The notes under the pieces were generated by a model, which worked only from the letters and a program-made list of their open reading frames with translations, was not told where the DNA came from and ran no database searches. A stretch of DNA of 64,000 nucleotides, taken from the NCBI GenBank assembly GCA_029260345.1, contig JAJDDK010000002.1:248001-312000 (forward strand). The letters are read 5' to 3'. Origin of the DNA: Phycisphaerales bacterium (lineage in GTDB: Bacteria; Planctomycetota; Phycisphaerae; Phycisphaerales; UBA1924). The translations under genes and the position numbers were made by a program. Below are positions 10,916-14,597 of the stretch, one piece after another (the stretch's first letter is position 1; every line of letters begins with the position of its first letter).

Positions 10916-13120
<2,205 letters not shown>

Positions 13121-13133
13121 CTATGGTGAGGTC

Positions 13134-14045
13134 GTGGAGACGCTTGTGACACAGACCGCAGCCATTCTGGACGGCAAGGCAATTGCGCAACGCGTGCGCG
13201 AGGACATCGCAGAACGCGTGTCGGACATTCGGAAGCGGGGCGGGGCCGTGCGGCTGGACGCTTTGCTCGCTGCCGGGCCGGATTCCGCCGCAGGGGTCTA
13301 CGCCGAAAGTCAGGGCACGGCCTGCGAAAAGGTCGGCATTGACTATCACCTGCATCGCCTTGCCGCTGATGCGACGTACGACGACATCGCCGGACGCGTG
13401 CTGCTGCTGAACACCGAGGACGACGTCACCGGCGTGATGGTGCACATGCCTCTGCCGGATGGTGTGGACCCGTACAGCATTCAGCGGCTGATCGCGCCGG
13501 AGAAGGACGTCGAGGGCGTGAACCCGGCGAACATCGGGAACATCGTCTACGGGCGGTCCTCGCTGGCGCCGTGCACGGCGATCGCCGTGCGCACGATGAT
13601 CGAATCCACCGGAATCGAACTTCGTGGCAAAACGTGTGTGATCGTCGGGGCGTCGAACATTGTGGGCAAGCCTGTCGCTGTGCTGCTCATGAAACACGAT
13701 GCGACGGTGATATCGACGAATAAATTCACACAGGACATCGCCGCACTGACGAGCCGCGCGGATGTGCTGGTCGCGGCCGCCGGCGTGCCGGGACTGATCA
13801 CGCGCGACATGGTGAAAACCGGCGCCGTGGTCGTGGATGTGGGCACGACGCGTGTGACGGACGAAACGGGTCGCACGCGGACCGTCGGGGATGTTGCGTT
13901 TGACGAGGTGAGCCGCGTCGCTGGCTGGATCAGCCCGGTGCCGGGCGGGGTTGGGCCGGTGACGGTCGCGATGCTGCTGCGGAATGTGGTGGATGCGGCG
14001 GAGCGATTGCCGGTGAAGGCGAATTCACGACGCGAGAGCGAATAG
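13134..14045 (+). CDS. folD: FolD-family methylene-THF dehydrogenase/cyclohydrolase homologue with altered active site
   Basis: Overall fold and motifs are FolD: ILDGKAIAQRVREDI at the start, GASNIVGKPVAVLLMKHDAT in the nucleotide-binding domain and SPVPGGVGPVTVAMLLRN near the end. FolD normally oxidises 5,10-methylene-THF and hydrolyses methenyl-THF. Canonical catalytic positions differ here. YxxxK reads YAESQ (Gln codon 13311-13313), VQLPLP reads VHMPLP (His codon 13443-13445), and KDVDG reads KDVEG (Glu codon 13512-13514). The dinucleotide motif GRS reads GAS, and CHSxT reads TNKFT. The start is uncertain: GTG at 13134 or 13146 is favoured, since an ATG at 13089 would overlap the divergent ligA start. 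The family call is firm; bifunctional activity is doubtful. Confidence 0.85.
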   Translation: METLVTQTAAILDGKAIAQRVREDIAERVSDIRKRGGAVRLDALLAAGPDSAAGVYAESQGTACEKVGIDYHLHRLAADATYDDIAGRVLLLNTEDDVTGVMVHMPLPDGVDPYSIQRLIAPEKDVEGVNPANIGNIVYGRSSLAPCTAIAVRTMIESTGIELRGKTCVIVGASNIVGKPVAVLLMKHDATVISTNKFTQDIAALTSRADVLVAAAGVPGLITRDMVKTGAVVVDVGTTRVTDETGRTRTVGDVAFDEVSRVAGWISPVPGGVGPVTVAMLLRNVVDAAERLPVKANSRRESE

Positions 14046-14068
14046 TGTGGTTCGGGGGCGCCCGATTT

Positions 14069-14176
14069 GAATCTGCCAAGACGTCTGACCTGAGTAAAGC
14101 GAAGGTCAGGAAGATTCGCGATGGCTCGCGCAAATGATCCGGACCTTCGCTTCGCTCAGGTCAGGCGTCCAGATTC
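14069..14176. repeat. Imperfect long inverted repeat between folD and tatA
   Basis: A 28-base arm (14080-14107, beginning GACGTCTGACCTGAG) is answered by 14142-14169 (CTTCGCTTCGCTCAGGTCAG...), 25 of 28 positions complementary. AATCTG/CAGATT outside extends the pairing, and the loop is about 34 bases. A degenerate relative of one arm occurs at 36436-36460. The remaining intergenic sequence up to the tatA RBS shows nothing else recognisable. Confidence 0.72.
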
Positions 14177-14312
14177 GCTCAGATCCAATGGCTTTGGCGT
14201 CAGGTCGCACCTCGGAGCCATTTCACCGGTTTGATTGACCTCCCCCTGCCAACCGGCTTCAATGTGAGCAGATCGACGCGACTCGGTCGATGGAAGTCCT
14301 CAAGGAGCAGAA

Positions 14313-14597
14313 ATGACCACGTTGGCTCTCGGCATGCCCGGTGGATACGAATGGCTGATCATTGCCGGGATCGGTCTGCTGTTGTTTGGCCGCCGCCTCC
14401 CGGAAGTGGGCCGCGGACTGGGCCGCAGCATTGTGGAGTTCCGCAAGGGCATCAAGGGGATCGAGGACGAGATCGAGGCGGAGTCCTCGAAGCCCGCGAA
14501 GTCGATCCCGGATCGCTCTCAGTCGGGGCCAGCGGGCACGGCGACGTTTCAGGCTGGTGAGCCGCAAGCCGCGCCGAACACCGGCGAGCATCACTGA
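14313..14597 (+). CDS. tatA: Sec-independent translocase subunit TatA
   Basis: A 94-aa TatA/TatE-type protein of the twin-arginine pathway. A short periplasmic N-terminus leads into the membrane helix (GGYEWLIIAGIGLLLFGRR), then the FGRRLPEVGRGLGRSIVEFR amphipathic helix with the conserved Phe-Gly pair. An acidic, disordered tail follows. An AGGAG ribosome-binding site lies 6 bases before the ATG. tatC is not adjacent. Its stop is one base from the stop of the convergent hypothetical gene. Family features do not separate TatA from TatE or TatB with certainty; length and the FG motif favour TatA. Confidence 0.92.
   Translation: MTTLALGMPGGYEWLIIAGIGLLLFGRRLPEVGRGLGRSIVEFRKGIKGIEDEIEAESSKPAKSIPDRSQSGPAGTATFQAGEPQAAPNTGEHH

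Follow-up and report, generated by a model that had tools for sequence, protein, structure and literature searches.

A FolD-family protein without the catalytic lysine in a Phycisphaerales genome and its probable pairing with a separate FchA-type cyclohydrolase

The window, which is the whole 64,000-nucleotide stretch of DNA analysed here, carries a gene of the folD family on the forward strand, whose open reading frame and coordinates were verified. The gene and its motifs are arranged as follows, with substitutions named by alignment to characterized FolD proteins.

13134..14045, + strand: folD-family gene, 303 amino acids, GTG start, domains PF00763 and PF02882
13071, same frame: alternative upstream ATG, overlapping the start of the divergent open reading frame 10916-13090
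13311..13313, + strand: Gln60 in place of the catalytic Lys of YxxxK (Lys54 in E. coli, Lys56 in human), by alignment
13443..13445, + strand: His104 in place of the Gln of VQLPLP (Gln98 in E. coli), by alignment
13512..13514, + strand: Glu127 in place of the Asp of KDVDG (Asp125 in human), by alignment
13647..13655, + strand: GAS in place of GRS in the dinucleotide-binding loop, GAS also occurring in canonical FolDs
13716..13730, + strand: TNKFT in place of CHSxT
13935..13958, + strand: PVPGGVGP motif, retained in a 25-row alignment

The divergent upstream frame presumably encodes a protein resembling DNA ligase. Between folD and the next gene lies a long, near-perfect hairpin (14069-14176), which may be a terminator or a mobile repeat. 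The RNA of 14046-14200 folds at -84.8 kcal/mol (z -7.75), and the arm sequence, with up to three mismatches, occurs in the window solely at the two arms themselves. A TatA/B/E-family gene follows downstream at 14313-14597, on the same strand as folD.

The product matches both FolD domains in Pfam, PF00763 with 89.1 bits (gathering threshold 32.8) and PF02882 with 196.5 bits (gathering threshold 27). Its AlphaFold2 model, with a mean pLDDT of 91, has the FolD fold: the 50 Foldseek matches shown from the PDB are all FolD or MTHFD proteins, with 33-43% identity and TM scores of 0.83-0.89 (normalized to query length), and they include the E. coli Q98H mutant 5o2a. The protein falls below the curated cut-off in all 25 NCBIfam models of bifunctional FolD shown (of 30), with a top score of 274 against 421 bits.

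The initial annotation had read Gln, His and Glu at the positions of the three classical active-site residues, and this reading is correct. The motifs concerned (YAESQ from residue 56, VHMPLP from 103 and KDVEG from 124) align without gaps to the solved FolDs of Pseudomonas (4a5o) and Campylobacter (3p2o), which have Lys, Gln and Asp at the three sites. Because these alignments are gap-free, no shifted Lys, Gln or Asp lies nearby, and a concealed motif shift is ruled out. The window protein lacks the catalytic lysine of bifunctional FolD, having Gln60, and it also lacks the Gln of VQLPLP and the Asp of KDVDG, having His104 and Glu127. When aligned to the window FolD, 5o2a has His at the Gln98 site itself, being the Q98H mutant. 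PVPGGVGP is identical across the 25-row alignment except for Ile in one row, and 36 columns are invariant between the window FolD and 24 other FolDs.

The changes claimed in the NADP motifs are likewise present, as GAS and TNKFT, but GAS also occurs in the Pseudomonas, Campylobacter and E. coli chains, and those of Pseudomonas and E. coli have THRFT at the site of TNKFT. Since GAS and THRFT are found in solved FolDs, GAS and TNKFT alone do not mark an altered enzyme, and with GAS present in E. coli-type FolD the NADP motif was dropped as evidence. Among loci of the Phycisphaerae-like class to which the window belongs, GRS occurs in 92 of 93 FolDs that keep the lysine (Lys-type) versus 16 of 177 that lack it (lysine-less), a suggestive contrast that points to no particular cofactor.

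In the human enzyme, replacement of the active-site lysine by glutamine reportedly abolishes cyclohydrolase and leaves dehydrogenase activity; the term "K56Q" was not found in the literature searched. For E. coli FolD, mutational work reports that K54N has undetectable cyclohydrolase and about 19% dehydrogenase activity, that Q98H retains about 8% dehydrogenase and about 1% cyclohydrolase, and that Lys54 is essential for cyclohydrolase (PMC5688156). A second study gives Lys56, together with Gln100, a further part in supporting hydride transfer and has the pterin bound by Asp125 (PMC3368264). A third describes no noticeable catalytic role of Lys in the dehydrogenase step, doubts that hydrolysis uses either Lys or Gln as its base, and leaves the role of Lys there unsettled (PMC9173628). 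By analogy with these results, a lysine-less FolD is predicted to have lost hydrolysis and to have kept dehydrogenase activity at some level. Such a variant would need compensation, because hydride transfer is attributed in part to Lys56 and Gln100, and dehydrogenase activity is lowered in K54N and Q98H alike.

The substitutions extend well beyond the window. Gln/His/Glu is present in 52 of 52 loci of at least 58% identity among L001-L111 (48 distinct aligned sequences, with L001 and L002 being the window gene itself), so it is not a product of chance. Six more distant lysine-less loci have Gln/Asn/Glu (L053, L054), Gln/Gln/Glu (L062) or Gln/Gln/Asp (L056, L057, L078). Across 270 loci of the class, all 93 Lys-type FolDs have both Gln and Asp, and the 177 lysine-less FolDs (176 with Gln, one with Arg) all have Glu. 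A second phylum, that of L078 (Candidatus Zipacnadia), placed in Armatimonadota, was sampled as the best 30 loci from the 142 of 151 searched genomes that had a match; these were ranked by likeness to a lysine-less query, which biases the lysine-less share of 25 in 30. Asp is kept in 23 of these 25, and Glu occurs in two. Since Asp is retained there and replaced by Glu in the class, Lys was probably lost first, and Gln and Asp later. Position 104 in lysine-less FolDs is H, Q, N, L, S, M or Y in the class and Q, L or T in the second phylum, a variability that is expected if constraint on this position was released.

Lysine-less FolDs form a single clade, spanning Planctomycetota and Armatimonadota, in three quick trees built without bootstrap (SH-aLRT 99, 100, and 99 with the three columns removed). 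The first tree has 143 rows and the other two have 132, after short or split loci were left out and near-copies thinned. No title on lysine-less FolD in Planctomycetota was found in the literature searched, in which subscription papers were mostly covered at listing level.

The window genome (3.40 Mb, 96.2% complete) holds a single FolD match, at C2:261134-262042, which rules out a second, ordinary FolD. The initial annotation had proposed looking for a second folD, fchA or fhs in the rest of the genome; what is present is this one FolD, one FchA-type gene and no Fhs match. The FchA-type gene, which belongs to the cyclohydrolase-containing FTCD_C family, lies at C2:185726-186223 on the same contig, about 75 kb from folD. 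The sole NCBIfam match of its product is FchA (NF045657), at 113 bits, below the curated equivalog cut-off of 275; its closest solved relative is the methenyl-THF cyclohydrolase 7vg4, followed by cyclodeaminases. In the 224 residues of it that were searched, Pfam detects PF04961 alone, without FTCD_N; the open frame is 257 residues long. PGGG, Asp100, Asn157, Asp163 and Asn185 are identical in 26 of 26 sequences compared, this partner included. Neither Fhs nor MCH, the gene expected of an H4MPT-linked pathway, has a match in the genome at its 96.2% completeness, and two formyltransferase-domain genes are present. With no Fhs, no MCH and two such genes, 10-formyl-THF would be required and would have to come through a cyclohydrolase step, if established folate pathways apply and allowing for the roughly 4% of the genome that may be missing. 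The E. coli work states that mutants survive on the spontaneous reaction (PMC5688156).

The same pairing recurs across genomes. FTCD_C, counted as present at E 0.001, was matched in 204 of 296 class genomes (203 over the family cut-off) and in 36 of 45 further genomes. In the 261 genomes with a FolD read, a table that does not span all 296 and includes 16 relatives whose FTCD_C state comes from the 45-genome search, an FTCD_C match accompanies lysine-less FolD in 176 of 177 genomes, versus 4 of 84 genomes with Lys-type FolD only. Outside this table stand G280 (neither gene found), G058 and G240 (FTCD_C, no FolD match) and G026 (81% complete, a FolD piece, no FTCD_C). The FolD search covered 80 of the 92 genomes without FTCD_C; G067 was searched separately, and G265, G267, G280, G299, G304, G307, G311, G313, G315, G317 and G322 were left out.

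The one lysine-less genome without an FTCD_C match, G149, is 93% complete, and its FolD is odd elsewhere too. G318 (92% complete) has a weak match, at E 4.2e-4 and below the family cut-off, and G184, G221 and G264 each have a single match in a long frame, which in G184 was read as a full FTCD. Four Lys-only genomes have FTCD_C: in G220 it is a full FTCD, in G168 a single long-frame match, and in G273 there are two matches; G227 combines a full FTCD with a second match, and one of its contigs ends in an unread FolD piece (48% identity). In the named set, FTCD_C is present in 6 of 6 lysine-less and 4 of 10 Lys-type genomes; two of these six lysine-less genomes probably lie inside the class, as L054 appears to be G218 (same contig and place of the FTCD_C match) and L053 nests in family f19. 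Because of these four Lys-type genomes, the partner does not imply loss of Lys, and a strict rule that FchA means no Lys is ruled out.

Within the window's own order, lysine-less FolD occurs together with FTCD_C in all 53 genomes read from families f1-f4 (G038 and G051 additionally carrying a Lys-type FolD), and each of the 16 read from f5-f6 has a Lys-type FolD and no FTCD_C match. Family f11 contains 12 lysine-less genomes that carry FTCD_C; its member G129 keeps Lys, and FTCD_C was not found there. Of the f23 genomes, 28 combine Lys with no FTCD_C match, G220 pairs it with a full FTCD, and the two lysine-less members, G170 and G214, have fchA adjoining folD.

These patterns make it very probable that the window FolD is a monofunctional methylene-THF dehydrogenase paired with a separate FchA. 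Monofunctionality was among the options offered by the initial annotation, which had held that a clade-wide substitution together with a separate cyclohydrolase gene would support specialization; both are seen at sequence level, and that option is favoured. Specifically, the window FolD, which keeps the fold, the substrate Tyr and the dinucleotide domain, would oxidize methylene-THF to methenyl-THF but would have lost the lysine required for hydrolysis. FchA, encoded at a distance on the same contig, would then open methenyl-THF to 10-formyl-THF and thereby supply the two formyltransferase-domain proteins. What each protein catalyses, how the partner contributes and which way the flux runs are all proposed on this basis.

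There is a small chance that the protein is still bifunctional, with a modified cyclohydrolase site of Gln60, His104 and Glu127 that still functions, and with another job for the FTCD_C protein, such as formimino-THF cyclodeamination. The FTCD_C family matches solved cyclodeaminases and a cyclohydrolase alike, the window genome's own member scores below the FchA cut-off, and some lysine-less genomes have FTCD_C in a long frame only, as one weak match, or not at all. Against this, position 104 varies in lysine-less FolDs and is Gln in 93 of 93 Lys-type class loci, and Lys54 is described as essential for the E. coli cyclohydrolase (PMC5688156). Moreover, FTCD_C was not found in the f5 and f6 genomes read or in G129, all of which have a Lys-type FolD. 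A protein acting outside folate C1 metabolism, on another substrate or carrier, is very unlikely. The three changed key residues and the differences at GRS and CHSxT would suit it, but the protein is the sole FolD match in a genome that has formyltransferase-domain genes, it shares the 36 invariant columns with other FolDs, and related families carry an ordinary FolD in its stead. The use of another C1 carrier, also raised by the initial annotation, is unsupported on the search for MCH, which gave no match.

The third alternative concerns the association itself, which might reflect shared descent from one ancestor with both genes and no functional link. Lysine-less FolD being one clade, the gene tree gives a single change of state, as such descent would predict; the idea is nonetheless highly improbable, because both genes switch together at three points of the host taxonomy (f5/f6, G129, and G170 with G214, by family codes rather than a host tree, and with G129 a possible binning error) and because in another phylum folD and fchA adjoin each other on a single strand. 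G129 is 91% complete with 3% contamination, and its FolD clusters with the FolDs of f6. Together with those of f5 and f6, all Lys-type, it forms a group (SH-aLRT 100) with Lys-type FolDs that include those of G227 and G132, which adjoin a full FTCD gene. It thus looks as if the FolD-FchA pair was replaced in these lineages by the FolD of a histidine-breakdown cassette. A divergent Lys-type FolD adjoins an FTCD_C gene in G132:C51, G227:C10, G038:C57 and G051:C1 (a full FTCD where read, at L122 and L135), and in G132, G038 and G051 it occurs besides the lysine-less FolD of the same genome. This divergent FolD probably belongs to a second, histidine-breakdown folate cassette. L211, which is G282's second FolD, forms a long branch separate from these.

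As for gene order, G170, G214, L056, L057 and L078 have fchA upstream of, and co-oriented with, their lysine-less folD. In the second phylum this arrangement is found in 20 of 25 lysine-less versus 0 of 5 Lys-type loci; three of the 20 repeat L056, L057 and L078. The intervening distance is at most about 300 bases in 19 of them, L406 being the exception at about 1.1 kb. Five lysine-less loci there have no upstream fchA, and two of these, L417 and L418, are close to the end of a contig. Such neighbours are rare in the class, with 2 cases among the 55 lysine-less loci for which at least 600 upstream bases were available, and the genes are apart in the window genome.

For the specialized dehydrogenase with its partner, a broader history is somewhat favoured. 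One ancient loss of Lys, enabled by an adjacent fchA, would have split the bifunctional enzyme over two genes, a state that much of the Phycisphaerae-like class, as well as some Armatimonadota, would now share. FolD and FchA would be gained and replaced as a unit, the released Gln and Asp positions would form a natural mutational series for hydrolysis-only residues, and FolD and FchA may bind each other to pass on methenyl-THF.

Several known systems resemble this arrangement in part. Bifunctional FolD/MTHFD proteins (E. coli FolD, the DC domain of human MTHFD1, and MTHFD2) share with the window FolD the two Pfam domains, the fold, the substrate Tyr and PVPGGVGP; unlike them, it has no catalytic Lys, partner Gln or substrate Asp. 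Yeast 1edz, which is presumably a monofunctional methylene-THF dehydrogenase, is likewise a FolD-family protein with one activity, but it is very distant (64 bits) and is comparable by family and activity only. The FchA of 7vg4, the partner's closest solved relative, is taken to come from Methylorubrum extorquens, whose FchA works with MtdA and not with a FolD. Clostridium perfringens, whose FolD is said to have been found monofunctional by Aluri et al. in 2016, places dehydrogenase and cyclohydrolase on separate proteins, FolD and FchA, but also has Fhs, for which the window genome has no match. In T. acetatoxydans, fchA lies next to folD at the fhs1 locus, in a Wood-Ljungdahl setting with fhs (PMC3584212). 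Such acetogen clusters share the adjacency seen in the second phylum, whereas the window genome has no fhs match and its fchA and folD lie apart. Separate FolD and FchA were thus already known; the new elements are a widespread lysine-less clade with a partner gene, and a genome without detected Fhs.

FolD is usually annotated as bifunctional, and in this large clade it probably is not. If so, one step is wrongly assigned in the annotation and metabolic models of the clade, and it would be catalysed by FchA instead. Natural variation in the clade could also show which FolD residues are needed for hydrolysis only. Additionally, the inhibitor carolacton is reported to bind E. coli FolD more weakly after changes at Lys54 and Gln98 (PMC5688156); by analogy, the FolD of these bacteria may be insensitive to carolacton.

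Some FolDs depart further from the common pattern. L275 (G161), from a genome with FTCD_C, is the sole FolD read with Arg at the Lys site and Leu at the Gln site. L170-L172, L221 and L265-L282 (f15, f25, f27 and G084 of f7) are each matched as two segments that break around residue 220, and so carry an insertion at this point. In the second phylum, the CHSxT region of the lysine-less L421, L424, L425, L431, L432 and L434 aligns badly, as if a stretch had been inserted.
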